IMG/VR virus record: IMGVR_UViG_3300042555_001232
Span: 1-20,792 of that record
Length of the DNA: 20,792 nt
Direction: 5' to 3' (one strand)
From: a virus
The translations under genes and the position numbers were made by a program. Below, piece after piece: positions 168 to 19,335 of the stretch; position 1 is the first letter of the stretch; every line of letters begins with the position of its first letter. The notes beneath the pieces are model-generated. The model was not told where the DNA came from and did not search any database. It saw only the letters and a program-made list of their open reading frames with translations.

Positions 168-197
168 TGTGGTGGGGCAGAACATGGATCGTATATT
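164..197 (+). repeat. 34-bp direct repeat, copy 1
   Basis: A perfect 34-bp repeat of 371-404. It spans the stop codon of the upstream gene and the promoter of the next gene. The two copies flank the 51-codon gene at 219-374, so recombination between them would remove that gene cleanly and leave one working promoter. Confidence 0.9.
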
Positions 198-200
198 CAC
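174..200 (+). promoter_or_regulatory. Early-type bipartite promoter P1
   Basis: GGGGCA (174-179), 12 bp, then TATATTCAC (192-200), followed by an A/T-rich leader to the ATG at 219. It is one of eight elements with the same 12-bp spacing in the small-gene block and is nearly identical to P2. The TATATTCAC box resembles the Bacteroidota TAnnTTTG element. The promoter function is inferred from repetition and position. Confidence 0.7.
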
Positions 201-3475: not shown

Positions 3476-3972
3476 TGATACGATTAACACACGACGAGGC
3501 TAAACAATATCGCCAACTTAATAGCGAAATTGATTTTAAGTATAATATGAAATCCGCTATTGCGTATACACTTACTCCAATTGAGGGTGAAGGTGGATGG
3601 GAGGAAATTACATATTATGGTGCTGCTTGGGTGGATCCAACTAATACACCTCAAAACCCACACTATGTTTATGTGCTTTGTAATCCATCTGTGCCTGGAA
3701 TATGTAAAATTGGTTACACTACCACAACAGTATACGATAGAGTACGCCAAATTAATTTAGCTACTGGCGTTATTACACCATGGTACCCAACATTTGCATA
3801 TAAGTGCCCTAACGGCCGTATGTTGGAAAGTGAAATTCATAATGAACTTGAGAAATTAGGTGCACGGGTCAACAATAAACGTGAGGGTTTTTATATGTCA
3901 TCTGATGATGCACGTAAAATTATTGAAAAATTAGGTTCTAAATATCAAAATCAATTAAATGGCAAAGATTAA
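3475..3972 (+). CDS. T5orf172/Mug113 GIY-YIG-type nuclease domain protein (165 aa)
   Basis: Residues about 63-150 match the T5orf172 (Mug113) branch of the GIY-YIG superfamily: HYVYVLCNP at the start, GICKIGYT about ten residues later, a conserved Arg (R89 or R91), the TGVITPW turn, the acidic LESEIHNEL helix and the REGFY strand. YVYVL and KIGYT correspond to the two GIY-YIG half motifs, and E120 is the best candidate for the metal-binding acid. The roughly 60 N-terminal residues are unrecognised and may recognise a target. Family proteins occur in many phages, sometimes fused to DNA-binding domains; few have tested activity. The start overlaps the upstream stop (TAATG) and the 3' end overlaps the next gene by 14 bases. 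Confidence 0.85.
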   Translation: MIRLTHDEAKQYRQLNSEIDFKYNMKSAIAYTLTPIEGEGGWEEITYYGAAWVDPTNTPQNPHYVYVLCNPSVPGICKIGYTTTTVYDRVRQINLATGVITPWYPTFAYKCPNGRMLESEIHNELEKLGARVNNKREGFYMSSDDARKIIEKLGSKYQNQLNGKD

Positions 3973-4153
3973 TATATTAATGATGGTTATTACTTGGGTA
4001 TTTGGTCATATTTTAATTTACCAAACCCACCATTACTTAACGGAAACTTATGTTTATAACATTCCTTTCATAATAGCGTTGTTCTTTACCGCTATGTACG
4101 CGCATCATCGTTTGTTCCATCATATGACTTTTAAGATTTTATCATATTTATAG
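3959..4153 (+). CDS. Small His-rich membrane protein (64 aa)
   Basis: Two hydrophobic segments (INILMMVITWVFGHILIY and YNIPFIIALFFTAMYA) flank a His-containing loop (THHYLTET), and a second His cluster follows (HHRLFHHMTF). The gene overlaps the nuclease gene by 14 bases and ends the operon. The stop codon lies inside an ATATTTATA box (4144-4152) and next to a GTATATACG site. The histidines could bind metal or haem; no family is recognised. Confidence 0.65.
   Translation: MAKINILMMVITWVFGHILIYQTHHYLTETYVYNIPFIIALFFTAMYAHHRLFHHMTFKILSYL
4144..4152 (+). promoter_or_regulatory. ATATTTATA box (possible late promoter, distant)
   Basis: An exact match to the late-type box found before 6604, 12753 and 18673, but overlapping the end of the upstream gene and 91 nt from the next likely start (4244). 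It could give a longer leader for that gene, or be chance in AT-rich DNA. Confidence 0.3.
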
Positions 4154-4221
4154 TATATACGGATAGTTGTATTAGAGTAGAGTCCACAAATTTAACGAGT
4201 GGGAGCTACGTCTTGTTCAAC

Positions 4222-4230
4222 CTATTTATA
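4222..4230 (+). promoter_or_regulatory. Late-type box before the duplicated-module gene
   Basis: CTATTTATA, one base off the ATATTTATA box, ends 13 nt before the ATG at 4244. It sits directly before a gene preceded by no early-type box, which supports late expression of that gene. Confidence 0.45.
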
Positions 4231-4243
4231 TTTATTGATAACA

Positions 4244-4990
4244 ATGACAGTATATAAAATTAAATCGGAAGACAAAGCTGCGTTTTTAAATCGCTTAGAA
4301 AAGTTGAATATCAACGTTAATTCTAATGATTTAAAGAACAAAAATAAACTTCAAGATGGAAATGTAATTAGTTGGTTTGAATTAACTGTTACTGATCCTG
4401 AACATGAACAACAAATAAATAATATTATAAACCAATCACCCGCAATAAACATAATAAGCGAAATGGAAACTAAAAAGAAAAAAATGACTAAGGACCAATT
4501 AAAAGAAATGGTTCGTCAAGAATTACAAGCTGTTTTAGCTGAAAAGAAAAAAGTTAAAGACGAAGATAAAAAAGAGAAATTAGACGAAAACGAAGTTACT
4601 TTAGAAGAATCTCCAATTGTTGATATCTTAGGTATATTAGCAGGTGTTGGTGGAATTGGTTTAACTGGTGCTGCTATTGCAAAAGCACAAGATATGCTTA
4701 AAGCTAAAAATCCAAAATTATATAATGATTTAGCTAGTATCAAAACATCAATTGCTAAAGCTGATCCTTCTAAGAATTTAGAAGAAAATGAAGAAGAAGT
4801 AAATGAAATGATTGATCCATCTACAGTAGCAGACGTGTTAGGCGTATTAGCAGGTATGGGTGGTATTGCAGCAAGTGCAGTAGCTATTGATAAGTGGCAA
4901 GAAAGAATTAAAATGAAGAACCCAGAATTGTATAAGAAAATGCAAGATCTTGGTACTACAATCAAAAGAGCAAAAGGTATTCAAGACTAA
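4244..4990 (+). CDS. Protein with duplicated glycine-rich module (248 aa), probable late protein
   Basis: Residues 1-70 look like a compact alpha/beta domain (MTVYKIKSEDKAAF...). They are followed by a Lys/Glu-rich helix (KMTKDQLKEMVRQELQAVL) of a kind common in T4-like phage virion proteins. The rest is a tandem duplication: residues about 115-178 and 181-246 share V-D-LG-LAG-GGI...KNP-LY and differ elsewhere. Each copy has a hydrophobic glycine-zipper-like helix (LAGVGGIGLTG, LAGMGGIAASA). The ATG at 4244 is preferred over an in-frame GTG at 4199, which would read through the late-type box. A strong terminator follows. A scaffold, internal head or membrane-interacting virion protein is plausible; not identified. 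Confidence 0.75.
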   Translation: MTVYKIKSEDKAAFLNRLEKLNINVNSNDLKNKNKLQDGNVISWFELTVTDPEHEQQINNIINQSPAINIISEMETKKKKMTKDQLKEMVRQELQAVLAEKKKVKDEDKKEKLDENEVTLEESPIVDILGILAGVGGIGLTGAAIAKAQDMLKAKNPKLYNDLASIKTSIAKADPSKNLEENEEEVNEMIDPSTVADVLGVLAGMGGIAASAVAIDKWQERIKMKNPELYKKMQDLGTTIKRAKGIQD

Positions 4991-5014
4991 TATAGTTTAA
5001 CATTATAACCGATT

Positions 5015-5047
5015 GAGCGGCTTGTGAAAACAGGTCGCTCTTTCTTT
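5015..5047 (+). terminator. Intrinsic terminator with GAAA tetraloop
   Basis: An 11-bp stem (5015-5025 with 5030-5040, two G-U pairs) closed by the tetraloop GAAA (5026-5029) and followed by TTTCTTT. It ends the unit of the 4244 gene and separates it from the sigma-factor operon. Confidence 0.85.
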
Positions 5048-5068
5048 GGTTCCGTTATTTTCCGGTCG

Positions 5069-5077
5069 TATATTGAG
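5069..5077 (+). promoter_or_regulatory. Early-type promoter P9 of the sigma-factor operon
   Basis: TCG then TATATTGAG (5069-5077), the same downstream box as P2, followed by an A-rich leader to the ATG at 5096. The GGGCA box is missing at the expected 12-bp spacing, so activity may depend on another factor or be weaker. Confidence 0.55.
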
Positions 5078-5095
5078 GTTAAAATACTTAAAACA

Positions 5096-5263
5096 ATGAG
5101 ATACAAAGACTTATTATTACAAAAGGTTGAGCAATTAGACATAATGATCAACAACCTAAACTTGATTGCTAGAGAAGGACAGGTTACAGATAACCACTTC
5201 GAGCAGTTAAAAGAACAAATTGAAGAAATTCGTTACCAAATTTCATTAGAAAACGAAGATTAA
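5096..5263 (+). CDS. Small helical protein (55 aa)
   Basis: The product begins MRYKDLLLQKVEQLDIMINN and is almost entirely predicted helix with heptad-like leucines, probably a short coiled coil. The ATG at 5096 follows promoter P9; the longer in-frame GTG at 5024 lies inside the terminator stem and is rejected. It is the first of four closely packed genes ending with the sigma factor. No family recognised. Confidence 0.75.
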   Translation: MRYKDLLLQKVEQLDIMINNLNLIAREGQVTDNHFEQLKEQIEEIRYQISLENED

Positions 5264-5264
5264 T

Positions 5265-5486
5265 ATGCTTAGCCAAAATTGGCAGGAAATATTAACCTAC
5301 ATTGAATCTAATGTAAAGGATCCCCACCGCACTCAGCTTCTTATTTTATGTAAGAAGTTTGAAGTGCATCTAAACTTAAACTCTGCCCCGAAACCTAAAA
5401 AACAATCTAAAAGGGATATACAAAACAAAATTGTATCAGAAAACCCTAATGCAGATAATTTACAAAATATTTTAAAAGGATTTTAA
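5265..5486 (+). CDS. Small basic protein upstream of the sigma factor (73 aa)
   Basis: The first 35 residues form a hydrophobic/amphipathic helix region (NWQEILTYIESNV, TQLLILCKKFEVHL); a basic linker follows (APKPKKQSKRD), and the protein ends NLQNILKGF. The C-terminal hydrophobic-plus-Phe ending resembles sliding-clamp-binding tails. In T4, the coactivator gp33 works with gp55 and the clamp, so a gp33-like role is possible; the sequence similarity is too slight to assert it. It starts 1 nt after the preceding stop. Confidence 0.7.
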   Translation: MLSQNWQEILTYIESNVKDPHRTQLLILCKKFEVHLNLNSAPKPKKQSKRDIQNKIVSENPNADNLQNILKGF

Positions 5487-5487
5487 T

Positions 5488-5772
5488 ATGATTACATTTA
5501 TAGTTTCACTTATAATTACCCTAACTTCAGGATATATTATTTGGAATCTTCTTAGAAAAGTAGAAAAATTAGAAGACGTAACTAACGAACAAAATGAATT
5601 AATTACTACTCTTACAGCTAGTGTAATTAAAATTGACGAAGTAATAACACAATTGGATTCATCAGGTGCATTTGAAAGTGATGATGAAATAGGTACTTTC
5701 TTTGAACAAATTAAGAATATGAGGGATGTTTTATTAGATAATTTAGCTAAAAAAGAAGAAAATAATGTATAA
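5488..5772 (+). CDS. Membrane-anchored coiled-coil protein (94 aa)
   Basis: Residues 3-22 (TFIVSLIITLTSGYIIWNLL) are one transmembrane helix. They are followed by a basic residue pair and a coiled coil (RKVEKLEDVTNEQNELI), then an acidic segment with FESDDEIGTFFEQIKNM. Short proteins of this layout (TM helix, LLRK-EKLED, SDDE-G-FF) are, to my recollection, commonly encoded next to gp55-like genes in T4-like environmental phages; their function is unknown. The gene starts 1 nt after the previous stop and overlaps the sigma gene by 8 bases. Confidence 0.75.
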   Translation: MITFIVSLIITLTSGYIIWNLLRKVEKLEDVTNEQNELITTLTASVIKIDEVITQLDSSGAFESDDEIGTFFEQIKNMRDVLLDNLAKKEENNV

Positions 5773-6559
5773 TGGATATTACGATGGTGGTAATTTTGAT
5801 GCTGCCAAATACCTAGAGGATGAATTAGGACCTGCTTTAACTAAGAAAGGTCGTGTACGTAAACGTAAACCAAAACAACCAAGAATTTACTTTACAGAAG
5901 ATACAGAAAATGCTATTGTTCAATATCTAGCTGAAACTGATCAAGATCTTCGAAATAGAATATATAATGAAAGAATTGCATATGGTTTCTACAAATTAGC
6001 AGAAAATATCATCCATACATTTAAATTCTATTATACCGACACAGATACAATTGAGGAATTAAAACATGAGGTGGTAGCGTTTCTTCTTGAAAAACTTCAC
6101 CTATATAATCAAAATAAAGGTAAAGCATATTCATATTTCGGTACAATTGCAAAGCGTTACTTGATAGTTTACAACCAGAACAACTATAAAAAATTACAAG
6201 AAAAGGTAAATATGGACGAAGTAAACGACGAAAACGATATCTTCGTAGACAATAACATAGGCTTAGATGAAGAGAAGAATGAGCTTAATATGTTTTTAGA
6301 TCAATTCGTTGCTTATATAGATAAACACATCTACACGATATTTCCTAAACAACAAGATGCTAAAACAGCAGATGCTATTGTTGAGTTATTCCGTAAACGT
6401 GAAAATTTAGAAATATTCAATAAGAAAGCACTATACATTTATATACGTGAAATAACAGACGTCGACACACCTCAAATCACTAAGATTATTAAAAAGTTAG
6501 ACGTTATTCGCCTTAAATTATTTAATGAGTTCTATGAACATGGGTACGTTAAAATGTAA
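5765..6559 (+). CDS. gp55-like RNA polymerase sigma factor for late transcription
   Basis: The core at residues about 80-142 (FKFYYTDTDTIEELKHEVV, FLLEKLHLYNQNKGKAYSYF, then GTIAKRYLI) matches the sigma region-2-like segment of T4 gp55 relatives: an acidic-helix region, the F.....GKAYSYF turn and an AKRYLI helix that would bind polymerase and melt the promoter. T4 gp55 replaces the host sigma to read late promoters. The N-terminal 45 residues are basic (KKGRVRKRKPKQP). The C terminus (FNEFYEHGYVKM) lacks an obvious clamp-binding tail such as the one in T4 gp55. It is the last gene of a four-gene operon from an early-type promoter. Its target is proposed to be the ATATTTATA box. Confidence 0.85.
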   Translation: MYNGYYDGGNFDAAKYLEDELGPALTKKGRVRKRKPKQPRIYFTEDTENAIVQYLAETDQDLRNRIYNERIAYGFYKLAENIIHTFKFYYTDTDTIEELKHEVVAFLLEKLHLYNQNKGKAYSYFGTIAKRYLIVYNQNNYKKLQEKVNMDEVNDENDIFVDNNIGLDEEKNELNMFLDQFVAYIDKHIYTIFPKQQDAKTADAIVELFRKRENLEIFNKKALYIYIREITDVDTPQITKIIKKLDVIRLKLFNEFYEHGYVKM

Positions 6560-6573
6560 CCTTTGTTTTTCTC

Positions 6574-6582
6574 ATATTTATA
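6574..6582 (+). promoter_or_regulatory. Late promoter box L1 (ATATTTATA)
   Basis: ATATTTATA ends 21 nt before the ATG at 6604, in the 44-bp gap after the sigma gene, and is the only promoter-like signal before the 6604-12685 operon. T4 late promoters use TATAAATA at the same relative place; this box contains its reverse complement. Confidence 0.55.
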
Positions 6583-6603
6583 CGTAAATAATACATAAAT
6601 ATT

Positions 6604-6999
6604 ATGGAAAATTTCAACCAAGTTATATTTGGTAAGAAGACATTCTCGGACTTATTGCAGGATATATACAAGACTACTAAGAAAACTGAAGATAGAATTG
6701 AGGAATTGATACTAGCCCTCAAACCATTTATTAATTCACCAGCGGAAGCTGTAATGATTGTGCCACTTATTAAAGAATATTTAGACGTTCAAGTAAAAAA
6801 CAATGACCATTTAGTAAGAATGGCATCAGTGGTGCAAAGAGCTATGTCAAATAGTGCAGCAGTAGGTAGTAATGATTTATTAATATCGGAAGAGGAAAAA
6901 GAACAATTATTACTTGAAGTTAAAAAAATGGGTGAAGATAACAAACAACTAGAAAATGTTGATGTTAGTGCTAACAAAATATTAGAAAATGGTAACTAA
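6604..6999 (+). CDS. Helical phage protein, probable baseplate/assembly factor (131 aa)
   Basis: The product is all alpha: helices around FSDLLQDIYKTTKKTEDRI, the Pro-containing FINSPAEAVMIVPLIKEYL, and a C-terminal charged coiled coil (EEEKEQLLLEVKKM). No catalytic motif or membrane helix is present. As the first gene of the baseplate operon it may encode an assembly chaperone or hub factor. It overlaps the spike gene by 11 bases. Confidence 0.75.
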   Translation: MENFNQVIFGKKTFSDLLQDIYKTTKKTEDRIEELILALKPFINSPAEAVMIVPLIKEYLDVQVKNNDHLVRMASVVQRAMSNSAAVGSNDLLISEEEKEQLLLEVKKMGEDNKQLENVDVSANKILENGN

Positions 7000-8170
7000 A
7001 TACGGTCTATCTTCTTTACGTAATTCCCCATCGTCAGGTGGTTCTCCCTTTAAATTTAAGGTAGGTAAAGTATTTGCTACTGTAATGGATGAGAAAACCC
7101 CCTCTAAAAAAGTTTTTGATCAATGTGGTGGGTGGTCTGGAGTAGGAACAGTATTGTTTAAATTCTACCCAGCAAATAAAGCAAAAGATAATTATGAGGA
7201 AAACAAAACAAGTAAAACTGTATTAGGTTATTCAACAGCTAAACCTCTTTTTCCAAATCAAAAATATATTCCTCTAAATGGGGAATTAATTTTAGTTTTT
7301 TCTTTACCTTCTATAAGCACACAAGGAAGTAAAGCTAATAATGGTCCTTCATATTATTACATGACAAATATTAATTTGTGGGGTAATAACCATTCTAACT
7401 CTCAAACAGCTAATCCTGAACATCCTTTAGGCTTGGGGTTTGATGAAAATCCAAATATACAATCTCTTTTACCTTTTGAAGGTGATTATATACTTGAAGG
7501 TAGATTTGGAAATACTTTAAGATTTGGATCTACAAATAAAATTAATACAGGAGAAAATTTTTGGAGTAATAGTGGTAGAAACGGGGATCCAATTACTATT
7601 TTAACTAATGGTCATAAATTTGGGAGTGAGAAATTATATGTTGAAGATATTAATAAAGATTCTTCTGCTTTATATTTAACTTCTACTCAAAAAGTTCCTT
7701 TAGAAGTATCTAAAACTAAACTTAATCCTCTTACTACAACCTCTTTACCTAACAAATATATAGAAGGATCTCAAGCAATATTAACGGCAGATAGAGTTGT
7801 TATAAATTCTAAAACAGAAAACGTATTATTATTTGCTCAAAATAATATTGAATTATATACTAAAAATACTATTAGTTTAGATGCTGATACTAGAACAGTA
7901 ATTAATTCACCTGTTATATTTTTAGGAATGAATGGAAGTCAAATTCCTGAAGAACCTGTATTATTAGGCAATGAAACTGTTTTTTTATTAAACACATTGC
8001 TTACAAGCTTATCCACATTCAGTACAATATGTTCATCTGCCTTAAATGGATCAAAGGGTTCTCCTATGACTCAGCTTAACACAGCAGCTAGGGGGTTAAA
8101 AGAATCAGTTGATAATTTAATTCCAAAATTAATTGATATTAAATCACAAAAAGTAAGAGTAGCCAAATAA
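6989..8170 (+). CDS. Baseplate central spike protein, gp5-like without lysozyme domain (393 aa)
   Basis: An N-terminal domain (FKVGKVFATVMDEKTP) is followed by an OB-like region with the GDYILEGRFGNTLRFGS segment (about 164-183). A repetitive beta-rich part comes next (AILTADRVVINSKTENVLLFA, then NNIELYTKNTISLDADTRTV). This is the layout of the T4 gp5/VgrG spike: OB fold, then stacked short strands with V.NS / ISLDAD spacing. The C-terminal helix (EPVLLGNETVFLLNTLLTSL, about 321-340) is also typical of gp5-type proteins of T4-like environmental phages. No lysozyme catalytic insert is seen, so wall digestion would come from another protein. The gene precedes gp25 and gp6 homologues. Confidence 0.75.
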   Translation: MVTKYGLSSLRNSPSSGGSPFKFKVGKVFATVMDEKTPSKKVFDQCGGWSGVGTVLFKFYPANKAKDNYEENKTSKTVLGYSTAKPLFPNQKYIPLNGELILVFSLPSISTQGSKANNGPSYYYMTNINLWGNNHSNSQTANPEHPLGLGFDENPNIQSLLPFEGDYILEGRFGNTLRFGSTNKINTGENFWSNSGRNGDPITILTNGHKFGSEKLYVEDINKDSSALYLTSTQKVPLEVSKTKLNPLTTTSLPNKYIEGSQAILTADRVVINSKTENVLLFAQNNIELYTKNTISLDADTRTVINSPVIFLGMNGSQIPEEPVLLGNETVFLLNTLLTSLSTFSTICSSALNGSKGSPMTQLNTAARGLKESVDNLIPKLIDIKSQKVRVAK

Positions 8171-9462
8171 TGTCAAATACAGTTAACATAGCAGGATTAG
8201 CATCTAATATAGCAGCAGGTAAGGGAAAATTAGAATCTATTAAAAATAATCTAAATGCCTCTAAAGTAGCAGACTTAGCTATTGAAAAAGGAAAACAGAT
8301 GACATCAGGACCTGTTCAACAGGTTTTAAATGATATTGAAGCAGCTAAAAAGAAGTATGATGATTTAAAAGCAAACACGTATGATAAGTTTAATGATTTA
8401 GATAAACGTATTATAAATAAATCTATTACTAGGGAAGAAGCAGATAGAATTAAAGGTATAGTACAAGGAAATTTTGAAGAAGAAGAAAAGGACTTAAAAG
8501 AATTTATAGATAAAAAAACAGAACAATATACTAAGTTAGTAGAAAACAGTAAAGAGTCTATTAAAAACAAGTTAAAAACAGCAGACGAGAAAGTTAGAGG
8601 ATTTTTAAAGAAAAGTCATAAAAGGGCTAAAAGAAAAAATGGAAAAATACTAAAAGATTTATTAAAAGGAGCTCTTAAGGCTGCTAAAAAGAATCCGGTT
8701 CCGGCCATAATGGCAGCTCTAACTATAACATGTCAATTAGTTTCTGTAAGAAATAAAAAAATTGAAGAATTAGTTGATAGTGTAAATAATGTTATAGATA
8801 ATATTCAATCCAAAGAGGATGTTAAAAAAGCAACTTTATTAAGAAATAATGCTATACGAATTATAAGAGAAAATGAAGCTAAAATCAACTCTATAAAGGG
8901 TACTTTAGAACGAATAGCATTAATACTATCAATATTAGATATTATTTTATTCTTAGCAGATATTCTTTTACCAATTCCTGTACCATCCCCAGCACCCGAC
9001 GTTGTAACTCCTTCTAAAGAAAAATTTAGAAAGAAGTATGAATTAGCTGTTGAGATTATAACTAGTTTAATAGCAGCTATTGCTATTATAGGATCGTTAT
9101 TAGATAGAATTATTGAAGAATTAGAAGACCAAAAAGAAAGACTTAAAGAAATTGATGCGTTCTTTGATGAACCTTCTAATTTAGCAGCATTTGACAGAAC
9201 TGATTTAGATAAAGCTTTAGCAGCTATATCACCATCAGGTAATTTTGGGGATTTGGGCACAGGATATAAAGGATTTAGATTTGCTCTTAAAGAAGAAAAT
9301 GATTCTAAATTCATTGTAGCTGGAAATAAACGTCGATATGCAGTAGCTCTTAATAGAGATGGTAATGAGGTACTACAATCTTCTCGCTCATTTACATTAG
9401 ACCCAGATATTCTTATTGAAGAACTTAAATTAATCATAGATCAACAAAATCTCAAACCTTAA
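8170..9462 (+). CDS. Helical membrane-segment tail/baseplate protein, possible tape-measure-like (430 aa)
   Basis: Residues 1-160 are Lys/Glu-rich coiled coil. Hydrophobic segments follow at about 175-193 (PAIMAALTITCQLV), 250-276 (LILSILDIILFLADILL and a proline run PIPVPSPAP) and 295-315 (IITSLIAAIAIIGSLL). The C-terminal 65 residues form a small beta domain (YKGFRFALKEEND, RRYAVALNRDGNEVL) and a final helix. Coiled coil plus membrane segments is what tape-measure or hub proteins that enter the host membrane look like, but 430 residues is short for a tape measure. The neighbours, a spike gene and gp25, support a tail-tip location. The start overlaps the spike stop by one base. Confidence 0.65.
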   Translation: MSNTVNIAGLASNIAAGKGKLESIKNNLNASKVADLAIEKGKQMTSGPVQQVLNDIEAAKKKYDDLKANTYDKFNDLDKRIINKSITREEADRIKGIVQGNFEEEEKDLKEFIDKKTEQYTKLVENSKESIKNKLKTADEKVRGFLKKSHKRAKRKNGKILKDLLKGALKAAKKNPVPAIMAALTITCQLVSVRNKKIEELVDSVNNVIDNIQSKEDVKKATLLRNNAIRIIRENEAKINSIKGTLERIALILSILDIILFLADILLPIPVPSPAPDVVTPSKEKFRKKYELAVEIITSLIAAIAIIGSLLDRIIEELEDQKERLKEIDAFFDEPSNLAAFDRTDLDKALAAISPSGNFGDLGTGYKGFRFALKEENDSKFIVAGNKRRYAVALNRDGNEVLQSSRSFTLDPDILIEELKLIIDQQNLKP

Positions 9463-9470
9463 TATTTATT
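9462..9470 (+). promoter_or_regulatory. Weak late-type box (ATATTTATT)
   Basis: One base off the ATATTTATA box and ending only 3 nt before the ATG at 9474, which would give a leaderless transcript of the 9474 gene. It may be chance; the operon reads through in any case. Confidence 0.25.
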
Positions 9471-9473
9471 GTT

Positions 9474-9836
9474 ATGGAAGCTAAACAATTTAAATCATTA
9501 ATTAAAGAAGCAGTACGTGAAGCCGTTCGTGAAGAACTTGGCTTAATGCTGTTAGAACAATTAAAGAGTGGTACAACACCACAACAATCTCAACCACTTA
9601 CTGAAGGTCGCTCAATGTCATTTGACAGCGGGGATGTACATAGTGTTGGTATGAGATCCCAAATGGGAAATAAAATGGCCGAAATGTTTGGAATGCCAGC
9701 AGCTGGAGCGGGAGTTAAACCTCAAACACAATTAAAAGTAGACCCAACAAGTGATAATCCATTTGCTGCGTTTATTAATGATACCGCTGCTAATCTTAGC
9801 CCTCAAGAAATGAGACAAATGTTACAAGGAGGATAA
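9474..9836 (+). CDS. Small virion-type protein (120 aa)
   Basis: It begins with an amphipathic helix KEAVREAVREELGLMLLEQL, a motif seen in several T4-like phage virion proteins and echoed in the 4244-4990 product. It continues with a Gly/Ser/Met-rich flexible part (FDSGDVHSVGMRSQMG) and ends NLSPQEMRQMLQGG. No known domain. It lies in the baseplate operon, overlapping the gp25 gene by one base, so a minor baseplate or hub component is likely. Confidence 0.7.
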   Translation: MEAKQFKSLIKEAVREAVREELGLMLLEQLKSGTTPQQSQPLTEGRSMSFDSGDVHSVGMRSQMGNKMAEMFGMPAAGAGVKPQTQLKVDPTSDNPFAAFINDTAANLSPQEMRQMLQGG

Positions 9837-10246
9837 TGGCAGTACCTAAAACATACCGTATAGACCCTAGAGATTTGCAAAAAAATATTGCAATTGGGGT
9901 TGGTTTGCCTTTTAGTTTACCTTCTGCTTTTAAAAGTACATATAGTACTAAAGAACAGGTAAAATATAATTTGATTAATCTTTTATTAACTAATAAAGGT
10001 GAACGAGTTGAAAATCCTGAATTTGGTTGTGATATAAAAAAATCTATATTTGATTTTATTAATAATGAAAATGTTAGTAAAATTAATAATAATATAAGAA
10101 CGGGTATAGCAATGTTTGTTCCTGAAGTAAATTTAGAGAATGTAATTATTACCCCAACACCTGATCAAAATACAATAAATGTAAAAATAGAATACAGTAT
10201 GAGAATTTCAGGTGAAGCCGATGAAATACAAATTAACTTTGAATAA
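9836..10246 (+). CDS. gp25-like baseplate wedge protein (136 aa)
   Basis: The segment NKGERVENPEFGC at residues 53-65 is the hallmark of the GPW/gp25 family (T4 gp25, phage P2 W), with the usual length near 130 residues. An N-terminal PFSLPSAFKSTYS and a C-terminal strand pair (TINVKIEYSMRISGE) agree. In T4, gp25 forms part of the inner baseplate wedge that nucleates sheath assembly. GGAGG ends 3 nt upstream of the ATG, one of the few Shine-Dalgarno-like sites here, but it is also the coding end of the previous gene. The stop overlaps the next start (TAATG). Confidence 0.9.
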   Translation: MAVPKTYRIDPRDLQKNIAIGVGLPFSLPSAFKSTYSTKEQVKYNLINLLLTNKGERVENPEFGCDIKKSIFDFINNENVSKINNNIRTGIAMFVPEVNLENVIITPTPDQNTINVKIEYSMRISGEADEIQINFE

Positions 10247-12075
10247 TGTCCGAAACTAAAAACATATCATATCTAAATAAAAGCTTTAGTGACTTTAAAG
10301 CCACATTAATAAAGCATGCTAAAACTTATTTCCCTACAGCATATAATGATTTCTCAGACGCATCTCCAGGGATGATGTTTATTGAAATGGCATCTTATGT
10401 AGGTGATGTATTATCATTCTATTTAGATACTCAGTTCCAAGAAAACTTACTTTTATACACAAAGGAAAAAGATAATGCTATATCTTTAGCTTACGCATTG
10501 GGTTATAGACCTAAAATGTCTTATGCTTCCTATGTTGACTTACAAATATCTCAAAGAGTTCCAATCATAACAAACATATTAAACAATACAGACATTCCAG
10601 ATAGCAATTATTATATTGTTATTCCTGAAAACAGTGTTGTAGAAAGTATTAATGGAACTAAGTTTTTAACTATTGAATTAGTTGACTTCTCTAAAGAAGA
10701 AAATAGAACTATTGCTTTTGAAGAAACAGGATATTATAGAGTAACCAAAACAGTAAAGGCTATATCAGCTGAAATCAAAACAACAACTGTTGATTTTGGT
10801 AATACACCACAAAAGTTTACTAGTACTACTATATCTGATAATAGAATATTAAATATATTACAGGTTACGGATGCTGGTAATAATATTTGGTATGAAGTTC
10901 CATATTTAGCTCAACAAGGTATTCCTCAAAAAACTACTAATCCAACATACAACTCGGATTCAATTCCTTACTTATTAAGTTATATTGAAACACCTAGAAG
11001 ATTTGTAACAAGATTTAAGGAAAATGGTGATTTAGAATTACAATTTGGAGCAGGCACAAATGCAGCTTCAGATACTTCTATTTTACCTAATCCAAATAAC
11101 TTAAATTTAGGTACAGATGCTAATGTATATGATCCAACTAATACATTTAATAGAGCAACAGTAGTAACTACAAGAGAATATGGTTTAGCTCCAACTGGTG
11201 TTATGACAATAAAATATCTTGTGGGTGGTGGTATAGCATCAAATGTTTCTTCTAATGAAATTGTAAATAGAAGATTTAACTTAGCTGATATTTCATTTAA
11301 TGGAGCTGTATCAACTCCTCAAGATGTAAATATTTTCAACAGCATGATTATTACAAATCCTGAACCTGCTATTGGAGGTAGAGATGAAGATACAGTTGAA
11401 GAAATTAGACAAAATACTCTTTATTCTTTCTCTTCACAAAATAGAGTTGTAACTAAAGAAGATTATATCAATAGAGTACTTAGTATGCCTAGCCACTTTG
11501 GTGCAGTTGCTAAAGTATATGCTATCAATGATTATGCCTTATCTCAAAACTCAGGAAATGATAGATTATTAGACAATAATCCTTTATCTATTAGTTTATA
11601 TGTTTTAGGATACAATGCAAATAAAAATTTAGTAACCCCATCTTCTGCACTCAAGAATAATATTAAAAACTATTTATCACAGTACAGAATGGCTACAGAT
11701 GCTATTAATATTAAAAATGCTTATTATCTTAATATAGGCATTAACTTTGATATTTCTGTGTTACCCACATTTAATAACAAAGAGGTATTAAGTAATTGCA
11801 TAAATGCTTTAAAAGATAAATTTAGCATTGAGTACATGCAGATTAACAAACCATTAGTTATATCTGATATTAATTCAACTTTAATACAAGTTAAAGGAGT
11901 TCAATCAATAACAAAAGTTGAAGTCGTAAATAAATCTGGTGGTAGTTATTCTCCATACAGTTATGATATTCACGGAGCAACTAGAAATAATATATTATAT
12001 CCATCATTAGATCCATCTATATTTGAAATTAGATTCCCTGATGTTGATATACAAGGTAGAATTGTAACATTATAA
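10246..12075 (+). CDS. gp6-like baseplate wedge protein, baseplate J family (609 aa)
   Basis: The N terminus (FPTAYNDFSDASPGMMFIEM, then ASYVGDVLSFYLDTQFQENL) is the typical start of T4 gp6/baseplate-J homologues in T4-like phages. Residues about 371-425 carry the conserved EPAIGGRDEDTVEEIRQNTL and VVTKEDYINRV segments. Gp6 dimers form the ring that holds the baseplate wedges together, and gp25 packs beside it, which agrees with the adjacent gene. Length is close to T4 gp6 (660 residues). It overlaps the gp25 stop by one base. Confidence 0.9.
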   Translation: MSETKNISYLNKSFSDFKATLIKHAKTYFPTAYNDFSDASPGMMFIEMASYVGDVLSFYLDTQFQENLLLYTKEKDNAISLAYALGYRPKMSYASYVDLQISQRVPIITNILNNTDIPDSNYYIVIPENSVVESINGTKFLTIELVDFSKEENRTIAFEETGYYRVTKTVKAISAEIKTTTVDFGNTPQKFTSTTISDNRILNILQVTDAGNNIWYEVPYLAQQGIPQKTTNPTYNSDSIPYLLSYIETPRRFVTRFKENGDLELQFGAGTNAASDTSILPNPNNLNLGTDANVYDPTNTFNRATVVTTREYGLAPTGVMTIKYLVGGGIASNVSSNEIVNRRFNLADISFNGAVSTPQDVNIFNSMIITNPEPAIGGRDEDTVEEIRQNTLYSFSSQNRVVTKEDYINRVLSMPSHFGAVAKVYAINDYALSQNSGNDRLLDNNPLSISLYVLGYNANKNLVTPSSALKNNIKNYLSQYRMATDAINIKNAYYLNIGINFDISVLPTFNNKEVLSNCINALKDKFSIEYMQINKPLVISDINSTLIQVKGVQSITKVEVVNKSGGSYSPYSYDIHGATRNNILYPSLDPSIFEIRFPDVDIQGRIVTL

Positions 12076-12085
12076 AAATTAAAAT

Positions 12086-12685
12086 ATGAATTTAGACAAA
12101 TTAAAAGGACATATTCCTGATAACGTAATTGCCCAAATTCCAGGAGTTATGGAAAAATTCCAGATTAATACTCCACTACGTTTAGCTCACTTTTTAGCTC
12201 AATGTGGTCATGAATCAGGCGGTTTCCGTTTAACAAAAGAAAACTTAAATTATAGCGCTAAAGGTTTAATGGGTATATTTAAAAAATATTTCCCTACACA
12301 AGCATTAGCTGACGCTTATGCTCGTAAACCAGAAAAAATTGCTAATAAAGTATATGGTGGTAGAATGGGCAATGGCCCAGAAGCATCTGGTGATGGCGCT
12401 AAGTACTGTGGACGTGGTTATATTCAATTAACAGGTAAAGACAACTATACAGCATTTGGTAAATCAATCAACGAAGATTTAACAGTAGACCCAACAGTAG
12501 TAGCAAGTAAATACGCTCTATTGTCAGCTGCATGGTTTTTCAGTAAAAACGGTTTACATAAATTAGCAGATGGTGGTGCAACTGATGCAGTTGTTACACA
12601 AATTACTAAGCGTGTTAACGGTGGTACTATTGGTTTAGCCGATAGAATTAAGCACTTCAAGGAATATCACGCCTTACTAGCATAA
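12086..12685 (+). CDS. GH19 chitinase-fold endolysin (199 aa)
   Basis: Residues 42-46 (HESGG) hold the catalytic Glu43 in the family motif. TKENLNYS (50-57) contains a second Glu (E52), and residues 109-121 (GRGYIQLTGKDNY) match the conserved GRG-QLTG-NY motif. GH19 phage enzymes cut peptidoglycan glycan strands. Length is normal for a single-domain enzyme; there is no signal peptide and no wall-binding domain, so it needs a holin or delivery within the virion. Being the last gene of the baseplate operon, 10 nt after gp6, it may substitute for the lysozyme missing from the spike protein. A terminator follows directly. Confidence 0.9.
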   Translation: MNLDKLKGHIPDNVIAQIPGVMEKFQINTPLRLAHFLAQCGHESGGFRLTKENLNYSAKGLMGIFKKYFPTQALADAYARKPEKIANKVYGGRMGNGPEASGDGAKYCGRGYIQLTGKDNYTAFGKSINEDLTVDPTVVASKYALLSAAWFFSKNGLHKLADGGATDAVVTQITKRVNGGTIGLADRIKHFKEYHALLA

Positions 12686-12705
12686 TAATACATAATTAAA
12701 TTAGG

Positions 12706-12750
12706 AGTTTCCGGTTGCAATATTTATATATAGTAACCGGAAACTTTTTT
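12706..12750 (+). terminator. Terminator with late promoter box in its loop
   Basis: A perfect 11-bp stem (12706-12716 with 12735-12745) holding GTTTCCGGTT / AACCGGAAAC, with an 18-nt loop (12717-12734) and a run of six T (12745-12750). It ends the baseplate-endolysin unit. The loop contains the ATATTTATA late box of the next unit. Confidence 0.9.
12720..12728 (+). promoter_or_regulatory. Late promoter box L2 inside the terminator loop
   Basis: ATATTTATA followed by TATAGTAA, nearly identical over 17 bases to L3 (12720-12736 versus 18645-18661, one difference). A start site 6-10 bases beyond would fall in the 3' arm of the hairpin, so the new transcript would lack the 5' arm and not terminate. 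The ATG at 12753 is 24 nt after the box. Confidence 0.6.
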
Positions 12751-12752
12751 AC

Positions 12753-13820
12753 ATGGCCGTATATAAAATATTCCCTGAAAAGGACGCGACAATTTATTCT
12801 TACTATCCCTCAACTAATACAGGGATAGACGAAATTCTAGAAGTTAGTACATTTGAAAGTTCTTTTCAAGGTACTAGAGAATCTTCTAGATCACTTATTA
12901 AATTTTCAACTAGCGAAATAGTTAATACCATTGCTACCAAGGTGGCAGGAGGTAGTTATAAAGCATTTTTAAAATTATATTTAGCAAGTGCTACTGAAAT
13001 TCCAACGGATTATAAGATCGAATGCTACCCAGTTTCTGGAGCTTGGGATATGGGAACAGGACGATTAGCTAATTATCCACCAACTGAAAATGGTGTTTGT
13101 TGGACAAACAAAACATTAAGCGATACGTGGACTACAGCAGGTGGTGATTGGTTTACAAGTTCGGTTGCTACTCAATCATTTTCATATAATGATGATAAAG
13201 ATATAGAGTTAAATGTAACTACAACTGTAAATGCATTTTATGCTTATGAAACTAACCCATTTGCCGCTGTTAAGACTAAAAACGAAGGCTTTATTTTAAA
13301 ACACTCAGGCAGCGTTGAGTTTGCAACTTCAAGCGCCCCATTTGAATTAAAATATTTCTCAGCAGATACTCATACTATTTACCCACCTTGTTTGGAAATT
13401 AGATGGGATGATAGTACATTCGTTACTGGTAGTGCTATTGTAACAACTAATCATAAAGCCGTTGTTTCGTTAAAAAACAATAAAGCTGAATTTCAACAAG
13501 ATTCAATTAATAAATTTAGATTAGGAGTTAGAGATCAATATCCACCAAGAACATTTAATGCAAACCAATTATACATAACTGGGTCCCAATTGTTACCTAG
13601 TTCATCGTATTGGGCTATTAAAGATTTAGATACTGAAGAATGGGTAGTAGATTTTGATACATCTTATACAAAGATAAGTGCTGACCCAACTTCAAGTTTC
13701 TTCACAGTTCATATGAATGGGTTACAACCAGAAAGATTTTATAAAATACTTATTAAATCTGTAATCGATGGTTCAACTATTATATTTGATGAAGATTATA
13801 TTTTTAAAGTAATTAGATAA
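12753..13820 (+). CDS. DNRLRE/CBM96-like virion protein (355 aa)
   Basis: Residues 1-200 resemble the DNRLRE (CBM96-like) beta-sandwich: an opening KDATIYSYYPSTNTG with DEILEVSTF, the SRSLIKFSTSEI strand and the later IELNVTTTVNAFY segment, in the usual order ending with a strand that reads FELKYFSAD. Such domains bind polysaccharide. The C-terminal 120 residues (YPPRTFNANQLYITGSQLL, YKILIKSVIDG) look like another beta-sandwich. There is no signal peptide, so it belongs in the virion, possibly a fibre or receptor-binding component that contacts the host glycan coat. It is the first gene of the second late unit, overlapping the next by one base. Confidence 0.65.
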   Translation: MAVYKIFPEKDATIYSYYPSTNTGIDEILEVSTFESSFQGTRESSRSLIKFSTSEIVNTIATKVAGGSYKAFLKLYLASATEIPTDYKIECYPVSGAWDMGTGRLANYPPTENGVCWTNKTLSDTWTTAGGDWFTSSVATQSFSYNDDKDIELNVTTTVNAFYAYETNPFAAVKTKNEGFILKHSGSVEFATSSAPFELKYFSADTHTIYPPCLEIRWDDSTFVTGSAIVTTNHKAVVSLKNNKAEFQQDSINKFRLGVRDQYPPRTFNANQLYITGSQLLPSSSYWAIKDLDTEEWVVDFDTSYTKISADPTSSFFTVHMNGLQPERFYKILIKSVIDGSTIIFDEDYIFKVIR

Positions 13821-14149
13821 TGGCTAGTATAAAAGTTGATAAAACTATTTTAGGGAAGAATAATAGTGTATTAAATACAGATTTTAGTTTCTTTTTAAAA
13901 GATACAACAGTACCTGAATTTACACTTGAAGACTTCTTTCAGTTATATGAGGAATTGTTTTATCAAATCCCTAAAGAAGGTGAAATTGAATCTCATAGAT
14001 ATATTCTAACTAAAGAAGCAGAGTACTTAGGAGTACAACTAGCAGACGATGTTGATATACAAGCGTTACTTAATGAAATTACTTCTTTGAGACAACAGCT
14101 TTTAGAAGCAAAAACAATTATTACAGACTACACAAAGACTAAAAGATAA
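13820..14149 (+). CDS. Small virion-associated protein with C-terminal coiled coil (109 aa)
   Basis: The N-terminal half contains FTLEDFFQLYEELFYQIP, an aromatic acidic segment, followed by HRYILTKEAEYLG. Residues 75-105 (INEITSLRQQLLEAKT-like heptads) form a coiled coil. It is wedged between the DNRLRE-type protein and the giant tail protein with one-base overlaps at both ends, so it is probably a structural adaptor or trimerisation partner. No family recognised. Confidence 0.7.
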   Translation: MASIKVDKTILGKNNSVLNTDFSFFLKDTTVPEFTLEDFFQLYEELFYQIPKEGEIESHRYILTKEAEYLGVQLADDVDIQALLNEITSLRQQLLEAKTIITDYTKTKR

Positions 14150-17100
14150 TGGCCGAAATAAAGATTATAGGGAATATTAGTAACACTGCTCAATCAAATA
14201 GATTTGATGAGAAAGACATTGCATTGTTGGGCCAAAACAGAATTATAAATAATTTTGGAACTCCTGATGATTACGTAGAATATCATATACATGATGCTTT
14301 AGGTAATCCATTAAGACAATTTTATTCTTATTTATCCTATAAATCACCTTCTGATATTGCCTTAAATTTAGATGGAACTTATTCTTCTTTAGAAATAGAT
14401 CCTATTGAAGATCTAAAGGATCAATATAGTAATGGTGAATTTCAAACAACATATAACTTTTTTAGAAATAAATTAGGTTTACCTGTTGCTCCTCTTTTTA
14501 TTAAAGAGATTTCTGATGATAGAACTGAACTTAAGGTAGGTTCTACTTTTTTAAATAATGATTTATTAGGACCAAGAACATTAGCTTTAGTAAATGAAAT
14601 TACTAATACTCCATATTTAAAGTATTATTTAGCTAACTTTGGGGATGGTAGTACACCATTAGTTATAATTAACGTTGCCTTAGACACAACTGAGGATAAT
14701 TACTATGCTCTTATCAAATTATATCAACCACTACCAGAGAATATATCTGTAAAAGATACTTTTTGGGTTGTTGATGAAATTATTGATAGTTATACTTTTG
14801 ATATTAATTTAGATAAATTATTAATATTAGATGAAGTTCCTAATATAAAGGGACCTAATTTTAGTGTTAAAGTTGATTTTAATAATGTAAGTACTCCTTA
14901 CCACAATCATAATTCATTAATTAATCAATTAACGGGTTCTAATTTTAATTTTATAACTCGTTATTTAAGTGGATCTATTGATATTAATGTAGACTATACT
15001 GATTTTAATGATTTTATTAGATTTAGTTCTGCTGAAGCTAGAATTGCTAATTTTAAAGATAAAGTAACTTTACTTCAAAAATATGAAGCTACTTCATCCC
15101 TTATAGCATCTAGTACATTATCTACTAAAGCAACAGAATTAGCTTATTATTCATCAAGTATTACCTCTATTGTTACTGGATTTGATGAGTATGAAAAATA
15201 CATGTACTTTGAATCAAGCTCATATGCTTATCCAAAGACAACAAGTACTAAACCATTTATATTACAACCAGTAACATCATCAATTGTTACTAGCTGGTAT
15301 AATGACAGAATAACAGCTGCTCAGGATTTTGATTTAGACAATCAAGACCAATTATTACAATTAATTCCTGAATTTGTTCGTGAAGATGAAAGTAATACCC
15401 CATACTTAACATTTGTTAATATGATGGGTCAATATTTTGATAATATATGGATTTATTTAAATTCAATTACTGACTTACATAAGAATAGAAATAACCTTGA
15501 AGAAGGTGTTTCTAAGGATGTTGTATTTCATGCATTACAATCATTAGGAGTTCATTTATATAATAGTAAAGCAGATGTAGATTTAGATTTAGCATTATTA
15601 GGTGCTAATAGTGGTAGTATTGGAAATTTAGATAATATTCCTAAAAAAGATTTAGTTGCTGAGGTATATAAAAGGATATATCATAACATACCATTATTAT
15701 TCAAATCAAAAGGTAGTAATAAAGGTTTAGATCATTTAGTTAATGTGTTTGGTATTACAGGTAGTATTCTACCAATTAAAGAATTTGGTGGAAATACAAA
15801 ACGTAATACATTAACCGATAGTAATGGAGATAAAATTCGTGTTATTCCTACTCAAATTACAGGAAGTGTATTATCACCTTATATTAGACTTGAAGAAGAA
15901 AGCACAGACATTACAGCAGTTAGGTCAGTAGACTTTCATAAAATTGATATATCTTTTTCACCTCAAAATGAAATAGACAATATATTGTCATCATCTATAT
16001 CAACAGCTGTTACTAATTTTGAAATTGACAATTATGTTGGTGATCCACGTTTTGAATTAAGTGGTAGTTATCCTACATTAGAAACATTAAGAAAAACACA
16101 TATTAATTCTAATTTTACTGTAGAATTTGATTATGCTGGTTTTATTGAATTAATAAAGTTCTTTGATAATTCATTATTTAAAATGTTAAAGGATTATGTA
16201 CCTGGTAGATCAACTCTATTAACAGGTGTAACTATTCGTCCTCAACATTTAGAAAGAATTAAATTTAAAAGACTTCAACCTGGTGTTGTTAGACAAACAG
16301 TATATGAAGCTAATTATCAAGGGCCTACAATTGCTGAGGACAATGATTATTTATATAGTTTATTACCAAACGATAGACGAGCATTTTACAATGGGGAATT
16401 GAGTGGAAGTTGGCCTGATATCAATGAAAGATTTGAAATTACAAACCCTAACCCATTCTTAATCACAACTACATCTAGCTCATATCAGTTTGAACATACT
16501 GATTTTAATGTAACATTAAACAATGCTAGCGGAAGTAGACATTCTATTAAAGTTCAAAAACTAACCCCAATATATTCATTTGTAAGTGGTACCTTACAAC
16601 AAACAAGCCATATTCAGGTACAAACTGATGTTCAGGATAGTAATGAGTCTTTAAGATCATTTGAATTATCAAGATATAAAGGAGTTAAATTAACTAGCTT
16701 AAATTATAACACATATACATCGGCTTCATTTAATTATGAAGGAGATAAATCATATGGTAAAACAGCTGCGATTGATAAGCAAGTTAGAAAATTAGGTTTA
16801 TTTTCTGAAATTGTTAAAAGTAGATTTTTACCAAATAGAAATGATGTTGTTACAAAATATCTTGTTGATGAAGAAGGTAATTTAACTGAATTAAACCAAC
16901 GTAATAAAAACTGGGAAGAAGTTCAAAGAACATTTGTTACTGCTGATGATTTGAATATATCATTATTTGACAATCAAAAATACAGTAATCAAAAGAGTTT
17001 AGATGGAACTAAACATATTTTTGAAAGCGGATATTCATACACACCACTATTATATTTCTCAGGAAGTGATAGTACATTGTATTTTGAATCAACTATAGGA

Positions 17101-18627
17101 AATACAGCTCATGAATTAGTAGCATCTCATCCTGTTGGTTTCATAACTAGTTCGTATGGTAATGCACCATCTTATCCTTTATTTACAAGTGGGTCCGATA
17201 GAGTAATTTATAATATTTTTACAAACATAACTACAGATATTAACTCAGCAGCTTATTATAATATAGGAAGCACAGGATCCCAAACACACCCTTCATACTC
17301 AGTTCCTGAAACCGGATTATATAATATCTCAGCTAGTGTTTCATTAGAGGTAAGTATGTCTAATGGTGGTGGTGTAACTTATACTTTAGAAGTTGTTAGT
17401 GGATCTACAGTATTAGCTTCTGGTTCACAATCAGTTACAATAGTAGATCAAGTAACAGGTTCTGTATTTAGTGGACAAGCATATATTGATGATTTTAGTT
17501 ATAATGGAGGAGATCCAGGTTTTAGAGAATCTATAACTCTTAATGGTACTCCTTATGTTTTAGAAGCAGATATTACTGTTGGAGGAACTGTTGTATTTCC
17601 TAGAGGAACTACAATTTATGGGTACAATATTTACAGCTCAGTATCCCTCCCATCTAATAATTGTATAGGATTTGATTGTAATAGCTGTGGTAGTTGTAAT
17701 GTTAGTTTTTCTAATTACAAGGCTATATGGGGTGCAAGTTCAACTATAACCTTTTTTGTTAATGGTGGAGCATGTACTGCAACACCTCCTGGCATGTATG
17801 GAAATCCTATTAACTGTGGATTTTATAGCTATGGTCAAGCAAATCTTTATGGCCAATTTTATGAAATTCCAGGAATATATAATACTGCTGAGACTGCTAC
17901 TATTAATTTAAATTTAGCAACCCAACAAAATTTAACAGGACCAACTGATAAATTACAAATTCGTTTAAAACAAAGTGGATTGACTATTGGATCTGGAGGT
18001 GATTGTTTAATTAAATTTAGTACCGATGGATATTTAAGAATAGCATCAATTTCTAATCAAATTAACAATCTTCCAAACGCTATAGCAGGTGGTGGTGGTT
18101 TTATCGAAGGTACAACTTTTACTTCAGGGGGCACAACTAGTAGTATAACATTAAATAGTCAATTATCTAGTTTTGAAGGATATAATTTTATTCCAAACCC
18201 ACCAACAGGATCTGGGATTCCAGTCCATTCATTATATCCTACTTATGGTGATATAGATTATACATTTAATCCTGGTTATTTTGATTTAATAGTACATTAT
18301 AATACTAGTGGACAGGTATCTGAATATAGAATTGTAAATAGTAGAAAAGTAGGTGGTAAATTAATATTAGATATTTCCCCATCATTTGATAATAGTACTC
18401 AAGCAACTACATTTAGAGGATCTATGAGTAGAATAATATTTTTAAAAAGATTAAAAGACGAAACAAATACAATCATAAATTTCATCAAACGTGATGGTAA
18501 AACATCATATGGTTTTTCAATCCCTGAAAATCTTCACCCAGATGTATTCAAAAATATTGATACAATTACCCGTGAAGTAAAAACTAAAATGATTGAAGGT
18601 GGTGGGTTAGATGGTGGTACATTATAA
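14149..18627 (+). CDS. Giant tail-protein-I-like baseplate/tail protein (1,492 aa)
   Basis: Residues about 400-550 (PEFVREDESNTPYLTFVNMM, FDNIWIYLNSITDLHKNRNN, YKRIYHNIPLLFKSKGSN, then GLDHLVNVFGI and IKEFGGN) have the layout of phage tail protein I / gp7-class wedge proteins. Here it is fused to large N- and C-terminal parts. Residues about 590-950 are beta-rich with repeated Ser/Thr runs. Residues about 1171-1222 hold six cysteines (CIGFDCNSCGSCN, GGAC, INC), which is rare in phage tail proteins. The C terminus is glycine-rich (GGGLDGG). The role is inferred as the wedge-to-fibre connection. The start overlaps the upstream stop by one base, and no frameshift is visible. Confidence 0.75.
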   Translation: MAEIKIIGNISNTAQSNRFDEKDIALLGQNRIINNFGTPDDYVEYHIHDALGNPLRQFYSYLSYKSPSDIALNLDGTYSSLEIDPIEDLKDQYSNGEFQTTYNFFRNKLGLPVAPLFIKEISDDRTELKVGSTFLNNDLLGPRTLALVNEITNTPYLKYYLANFGDGSTPLVIINVALDTTEDNYYALIKLYQPLPENISVKDTFWVVDEIIDSYTFDINLDKLLILDEVPNIKGPNFSVKVDFNNVSTPYHNHNSLINQLTGSNFNFITRYLSGSIDINVDYTDFNDFIRFSSAEARIANFKDKVTLLQKYEATSSLIASSTLSTKATELAYYSSSITSIVTGFDEYEKYMYFESSSYAYPKTTSTKPFILQPVTSSIVTSWYNDRITAAQDFDLDNQDQLLQLIPEFVREDESNTPYLTFVNMMGQYFDNIWIYLNSITDLHKNRNNLEEGVSKDVVFHALQSLGVHLYNSKADVDLDLALLGANSGSIGNLDNIPKKDLVAEVYKRIYHNIPLLFKSKGSNKGLDHLVNVFGITGSILPIKEFGGNTKRNTLTDSNGDKIRVIPTQITGSVLSPYIRLEEESTDITAVRSVDFHKIDISFSPQNEIDNILSSSISTAVTNFEIDNYVGDPRFELSGSYPTLETLRKTHINSNFTVEFDYAGFIELIKFFDNSLFKMLKDYVPGRSTLLTGVTIRPQHLERIKFKRLQPGVVRQTVYEANYQGPTIAEDNDYLYSLLPNDRRAFYNGELSGSWPDINERFEITNPNPFLITTTSSSYQFEHTDFNVTLNNASGSRHSIKVQKLTPIYSFVSGTLQQTSHIQVQTDVQDSNESLRSFELSRYKGVKLTSLNYNTYTSASFNYEGDKSYGKTAAIDKQVRKLGLFSEIVKSRFLPNRNDVVTKYLVDEEGNLTELNQRNKNWEEVQRTFVTADDLNISLFDNQKYSNQKSLDGTKHIFESGYSYTPLLYFSGSDSTLYFESTIGNTAHELVASHPVGFITSSYGNAPSYPLFTSGSDRVIYNIFTNITTDINSAAYYNIGSTGSQTHPSYSVPETGLYNISASVSLEVSMSNGGGVTYTLEVVSGSTVLASGSQSVTIVDQVTGSVFSGQAYIDDFSYNGGDPGFRESITLNGTPYVLEADITVGGTVVFPRGTTIYGYNIYSSVSLPSNNCIGFDCNSCGSCNVSFSNYKAIWGASSTITFFVNGGACTATPPGMYGNPINCGFYSYGQANLYGQFYEIPGIYNTAETATINLNLATQQNLTGPTDKLQIRLKQSGLTIGSGGDCLIKFSTDGYLRIASISNQINNLPNAIAGGGGFIEGTTFTSGGTTSSITLNSQLSSFEGYNFIPNPPTGSGIPVHSLYPTYGDIDYTFNPGYFDLIVHYNTSGQVSEYRIVNSRKVGGKLILDISPSFDNSTQATTFRGSMSRIIFLKRLKDETNTIINFIKRDGKTSYGFSIPENLHPDVFKNIDTITREVKTKMIEGGGLDGGTL

Positions 18628-18644
18628 TAAAATTTAAAATTTGT

Positions 18645-18653
18645 ATATTTATA
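18645..18653 (+). promoter_or_regulatory. Late promoter box L3 (ATATTTATA)
   Basis: ATATTTATA inside the inverted repeat TGTATA-TTTA-TATACA (18642-18657), then CAGTAA. It ends 19 nt before the ATG at 18673, after a 45-bp gap, and starts the third late unit. Confidence 0.55.
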
Positions 18654-19332: not shown

Positions 19333-19335
19333 CAT

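Follow-up and report, generated by a model that had tools for sequence, protein, structure and literature searches.

The late promoters of phage T4 carry a box of A and T only (TATAAATA) that begins at -13, about one helical turn upstream of the transcript start. They have no conserved -35 element, precede virion genes and depend on the phage-encoded sigma factor gp55, in which similarity to sigma-70 is confined to domain 2, the beta flap being occupied by gp33 (PMC2988020). In the cyanophage S-PM2, which encodes a gp55 homolog, virion genes follow the late promoter NATAAATA with its loose first position, and overlapping early and late promoters have been proposed for both RB49 and S-PM2 (PMC2984593). 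In Bacteroidota, sigma-A promoters combine TTTG with TAnnTTTG, and the latter, the -7 box, is located at -12 to -5 in F. psychrophilum, where leaderless mRNAs account for 5.5% (PMC9723704). A literature search recovered no account of late promoters of the gp55 type in phages of Bacteroidetes or Flavobacterium, no ATATTTATA as a phage promoter, and no published promoter analysis of Flavobacterium phage immuto (Immutovirus).

We analyzed a complete IMG/VR record of 20,792 bases from a T4-like myovirus (the window), which has its sigma family, gene order and boxes in common with the isolate immuto (strand bias of the box in immuto, 25:3). The original prediction for this DNA had proposed a second promoter class upstream of the virion units, unlike the early class and paired with a gp55-like sigma factor encoded adjacent to it, and all of this was supported. 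Judged from sequence, the late class is a real, strongly conserved class of putative promoters and a variant on the T4 late-promoter theme. As in T4, an AT-only box is located before virion genes, -35 conservation is missing, and the phage encodes a candidate sigma factor with a gp55-like region 2; the predicted distance from box to start, about one helical turn, would also agree with T4 (PMC2988020). Unlike the 8-bp box of T4, the consensus here is ATATTTATW, with AA replaced by TT at -9/-8, with T-5 and W-4 also conserved, and with no strict T-13; the S-PM2 box also differs in having the central AA. The candidate late boxes of the window and the units that follow them are:

Positions 4144 to 4152, plus strand: copy of ATATTTATA, functionally doubtful, that overlaps the end of ORF 3959-4153 and directly adjoins GTATATACG.
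Positions 4228 to 4236, plus strand: late box ATATTTATT, 13 nt before the ATG at 4241, with the box end 4 nt from the ATG.
Positions 6574 to 6582, plus strand: late box ATATTTATA, starting 30 nt before the ATG at 6604, the first gene after the sigma gene.
Positions 6604 to 9462, plus strand: virion unit 1 (ORFs 6604, 6989 and 8170), with gene order conserved in immuto and relatives.
Positions 9462 to 9470, plus strand: late box ATATTTATT, exactly 12 nt before the ATG at 9474.
Positions 9474 to 12685, plus strand: virion/lysis unit 2, with a gp25-like gene (9836), a gp6/J-like wedge gene (10246) and a GH19-type endolysin gene (12086).
Positions 12720 to 12728, plus strand: late box ATATTTATA, 33 nt before the ATG at 12753.
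Positions 12753 to 18627, plus strand: virion unit 3 (12753, 13820 and 14149), with orthologs in the baseplate/tail region of immuto.
Positions 18645 to 18653, plus strand: late box ATATTTATA, 28 nt before the ATG at 18673.
Positions 18673 to 20292, plus strand: virion unit 4 (18673 and 19336), with an ortholog of 18673 present in immuto.

In the window, ATATTTATA occurs four times on the plus strand (4144, 6574, 12720 and 18645) and never on the minus strand. The boxes predicted at 6574, 12720 and 18645 are real and precede the first genes of units, and the claimed agreement of the latter two over 16 of 17 bases was correct (ATATTTATATATAGTAA and ATATTTATATACAGTAA). A weaker box had been placed at 4222; the site itself reads CTATTTATA, and the true element, ATATTTATT, overlaps it at 4228. 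The copy at 4144, from which the predicted range had started, is doubtful, since it is kept in the closest relatives only, about 90-100 nt from the start, while nearly all relatives share GTATATACG there instead. The number of boxes in the window is not above chance (6 ATATTTATW, compared with a shuffle mean of 2.3 and a maximum of 7). As for their placement, 5 of the 6 start 8-45 nt before an ORF start, as compared to a mean of 0.14 and a maximum of 2 in 200 shuffles.

The box at 12720 sits in the loop region of a terminator-like structure at 12706-12745, in which a T run comes after an 18-nt inverted repeat (RNA fold -24.1 kcal/mol, z -7.3); this repeat can be recognised in the three closest relatives. 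Because the promoter would be nested in the terminator hairpin, transcripts begun at this box would not be caught by the terminator, which halts read-through. Within the window, neither an Rfam nor a tRNA scan gave a match. Two further observations concern other parts of the window. The sequence GTATATACG (4153-4161, also at 2503 and 2600) is conserved upstream of the orthologs of gene 4241 in nearly all relatives, with about 70 nt of non-coding DNA between it and the gene, and occurs in 2-4 mostly intergenic copies per genome. Also, positions 2210-2400 hold a GC-rich, repeat-like stretch (ggcgcacgggcgtctgggcgtctgg...) with no convincing gene, the rest of the genome having 30% GC.

The box was then counted in about 0.8 Mb of DNA from relatives, consisting of six long contigs and almost the whole of immuto. 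On the coding strand, ATATTTATA was found 153 times, as against 9 times on the opposite strand, and it ranks first for strand bias among 510 A/T-only 9-mers. These strand counts predate the addition of the final 50 kb of immuto; the placement count, which includes them, locates 135 of 160 copies 8-45 nt before ORF starts, a zone that holds 5.3% of positions. A count of intergenic versus coding DNA had been suggested as a check, and the box was not equally frequent inside genes: most copies are intergenic, in genomes whose non-coding share is just 4-11%. The enrichment was mostly lost with any single substitution in ATATTTATA except A to T at position 9, which gives the consensus ATATTTATW. The reversed sequence was useless as a control, ATATTTATA being a mirror palindrome.

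For each gene in the window, 60 nt upstream of its orthologs in the relative loci were scanned for ATATTTATW. The box was present upstream of 80/81 orthologs of gene 6604, 44/50 of gene 12753, 21/27 of gene 4241 and 47/47 of gene 9474, whose box at 9462 had been missed in the original prediction despite this conservation. The box of gene 18673 was also found at the orthologous gene in immuto, G001, G002, G003, G004 and G007. Operon-internal genes had no box (0/69, 0/71, 0/65, 0/71, 0/68, 0/45 and 0/40), and for orthologs of the endolysin gene 12086 the count was 3/36. Among the first genes behind late boxes in the relatives that have a recognised immuto homolog, 49 are virion genes (portal, terminase, sheath, tail completion, hub, tape measure, head completion and baseplate) and 6 are others, 5 of these PhoH, as compared to 0 virion and 3 other genes with a recognised homolog behind early boxes. 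Fisher's exact test gives p ~0.003 by hand calculation with cases taken as independent, which overstates the evidence because orthologs repeat between genomes. The sequence ATATTTAT(A/T) before virion genes is almost certainly the late-gene switch of a sizeable and poorly studied group of T4-like viruses of Bacteroidota, with a presumed promoter role in vivo.

The position of the start was derived from a non-redundant set of 244 boxes, indexed with the first A of the box as 0. A purine occupies index +12 in 91% of these sites (89% without the 12-nt class), and the box-to-ATG distance is two-peaked, with 38 of the 244 boxes (~15%) exactly 12 nt before the ATG, few at 13-21 nt and most at 22-33 nt. 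The 12-nt class is drawn from several unrelated genes. The simplest reading is that transcripts would start at index 12, with the box spanning -12 to -4 and leaders that are either absent or no shorter than 10 nt. Since the ATG is located at index 12 in the 12-nt class, leaderless mRNAs are predicted, among them that of the gp25/gp6 baseplate unit behind the box at 9462.

This register also bears on the orientation of the box. The original prediction had described it as a re-oriented T4 box, and TATTTATA and TATAAATA are indeed exact reverse complements of each other, so that the sigma factor would read TATAAATA on the opposite strand. Such a reverse match is weak evidence, because the two strings differ at two central positions only. 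In the reverse-complement alignment, T4 spacing puts +1 at index 14, a position without a purine peak, whereas alignment of (N)ATATTTA on the (N)ATAAATA of T4 and the cyanophages in the same orientation, with AA to TT at -9/-8, puts it at index 12, where the purine and ATG peaks are found. An inverted box is in our view very improbable, and the element appears better described as NATAAATA in the same orientation, i.e., a T4-type box with AA to TT at -9/-8 in which a further two positions are fixed.

The proximity of the boxes to start codons, together with the lack of Shine-Dalgarno signals in Bacteroidota (PMC6847099), would also agree with an mRNA element, such as a translation initiation or processing site, in place of a promoter. 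The distance from box to ATG, however, varies from 8 to more than 45 nt with a gap at 13-21, operon-internal starts have no box, and the box often follows terminator hairpins and once lies inside one. We regard the chance that the box acts in the mRNA as minute and continue with the promoter reading.

The late class is distinct from the early class of these phages, which has the form TTG...GGCAAAA...TCGTATATT[T/C]A, with TTG around -23 to -21 and GGCAAAA around -16 to -10. The early class resembles the Bacteroidota host promoter, and its TTG is located about 20 nt before TATATT, which is the spacing of Bacteroidota promoters. In the window, it is found at:

Positions 192 to 199, plus strand: -7 box TATATTCA of an early-class promoter, with further copies at 399 and 750.

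Near-identical repeats (tggggcagaacatggatCGTATATTcacgttataa) at 150-215, 370-415, 720-770 and 1675-1710, located before small early ORFs, constitute repeated early promoter units.

The core TAnnTTT of the sigma-A promoter is common to both phage classes, and the early class also shares its -33 TTG at ~20 nt spacing (PMC9723704). The late boxes might accordingly be read by host sigma-A as a variant (TATATTTA) of the -7 box TAnnTTTG, perhaps switched by a phage activator, with the gp55-like protein doing something else. The resemblance to the F. psychrophilum box at -12 to -5 (PMC9723704) and to the early phage boxes TATATT[T/C]A speaks for this, as does the early GGCAAAA-type spacer at ~17/244 late boxes. 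These hybrid boxes are like the overlapping promoters proposed for RB49 and S-PM2 (PMC2984593), and they explain just part of the purine bias near index -17, within a weak bias that extends over index -18 to -16 upstream of late boxes. Against reading by sigma-A, the late boxes have neither the -33 TTG nor the final G of the host element; no -33, TTTG-like or -35 signal was found upstream of the 244 sites. A T directly precedes the box in only 48%, and nine positions are fixed, two of which (T and W) are additional. Virion genes, moreover, follow the late class, and the 9-mer is not in use in host genomes: across 0.9 Mb of Bacteroidota DNA of low GC content, clear enrichment upstream of genes is seen for TAnnTTTG (153 vs. 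42) and hardly any for ATATTTATW (11 vs. 3.5, with 6 antisense), which makes the host sigma factor an unlikely reader. The preferred reader is instead a sigma factor of the phage, for which the relevant features in the window are:

Positions 5045 to 5076, plus strand: early/host-type promoter TTTG-N20-TATATTGA, matching the early class, before the operon 5096-6559, in which the sigma gene is last.
Positions 5765 to 6559, plus strand: candidate late sigma factor of 264 aa, with a gp55-like sigma-2 region (approximately residues 41-164) and a helical C-terminal domain (166-264).

The candidate sigma factor is longer than T4 gp55 (185 aa), the C-terminal helical domain being extra. Its AlphaFold2 model was of moderate quality (pLDDT 71, pTM 0.41), and the best match among the PDB chains compared was T4 gp55 in the gp55-RNAP-promoter complex (7d7c_F; Z 10.0, 118/137 residues, rmsd 5.4), with other sigma factors next. 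A Foldseek search with the model gave a probability of 0.97 with a poor E-value of 0.66. The modelled similarity of the sigma-2 domain to gp55 is as expected for a member of the gp55 late sigma family. At the sequence level, hhalign aligned residues 45-129 with 14-101 of gp55 collinearly and below threshold (E 0.011, probability 4%). Searches of PHROGs, Pfam and PDB sequences gave nothing above threshold, with Pfam Sigma70_r2 below the cut-off; the S-PM2 homolog is much closer to T4 gp55 by sequence.

The C-terminal domain was modelled with a pLDDT of 87.5 and has sigma region 4 among its best matches, which are weak (Z 5.6-6.4); Foldseek found nothing significant for this domain. The family ends in ...EHGY(I/V)xM/I, and an acidic end, as in the hydrophobic and acidic sliding-clamp epitope at the C-terminus of the gp55 family, is not evident. 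A search for the T4-type clamp (PF02916) gave a match in T4 only and is uninformative, being so insensitive that the cyanophage control was also missed. It is possible that a single sigma factor does the jobs of both gp55 and gp33. Structure and genomic context indicate that the product of 5765-6559 probably reads the late box.

The original prediction had placed the sigma gene under an early-type promoter, giving a simple early-to-late switch. Such a promoter is present in the window at 5045-5076, preceded by a terminator-like hairpin near 5015-5041, and is kept in the closest relatives only. Most other relatives (L020, L025 and L031 among them) have instead a late or hybrid box, the conserved (G)TATATTTATATATAAACATAT, at a distance of ~550-600 nt ahead of the sigma gene, which suggests that autoregulation is likely in those relatives, and the simple switch is thus just a local state.

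For the gene at 5765-6559, IMG/VR contains at least 596 relatives, and the phage group comprises at least 576 related stretches in the same database. In immuto, the relative is 49% identical and annotated as hypothetical. When loci were binned by identity of their sigma factor to that of the window, the box was still enriched in the two bins at only 40-48%, being found in 67 of 321 upstream regions, compared with 12 that have the reverse complement. Mel-JY01 (PP395634), which is listed as a Microcystis phage, has the box as well (14 vs. 1.2). The upstream regions of this phage (L128, L137-L146) are enriched in TATATTTG and ATATTTAT, which are Bacteroidota-type signals, and the cyanobacterial host stated for it may be wrong. 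The box is absent from the jumbo phage LR756508, which has a higher GC content and a sigma factor that is 40% identical by alignment. Searches for relatives with single sequences recovered two near-copies of the LR756508 sigma factor and none for that of Mel-JY01, while a profile search did yield relatives. Retention of the box alongside a diverged sigma factor fits coevolution of the two; their co-occurrence is no proof of recognition, because of shared descent.

Overall, we consider it likely that ATATTTATW is the late -10 element of a Bacteroidota T4-like myovirus clade and is read by a gp55-like phage sigma factor, with the promoter role in vivo, the reader and the start site as we infer them here. 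In this scheme, early genes would be transcribed from promoters that combine TTG at -33 with TATATT[T/C]A at -7, by host RNA polymerase carrying the host's sigma-A. The phage sigma factor (5765-6559), with its gp55-like region 2, would then be made, bind the host core polymerase and direct it to ATATTTATW as a -10 element that needs no -33, turning on the virion and lysis units. Transcripts would start 12 nt downstream of the box's first A, and an ATG at that position would give a leaderless mRNA.

A more far-reaching proposal, which we put forward tentatively and hold to be possible at best, is that this is a distinct system. One sigma factor with a gp55-like region 2 and a region-4-like C-terminal domain would take on the roles of both gp55 and gp33, perhaps with no clamp involved. 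The box would have moved from TATAAATA to NATATTTATW alongside the host's own change from TATAAT to TAnnTTTG, and a substantial fraction of the late mRNAs would be leaderless.

The analysis suggests a transcription programme, with an early class, a late class and a candidate late sigma factor, for an abundant group of environmental phages in which the sigma factor is annotated as hypothetical. Late genes and operons would become readable from sequence, and leaderless late mRNAs are predicted. It also raises an evolutionary point, in that the late box seems to track the -10 consensus of the host.
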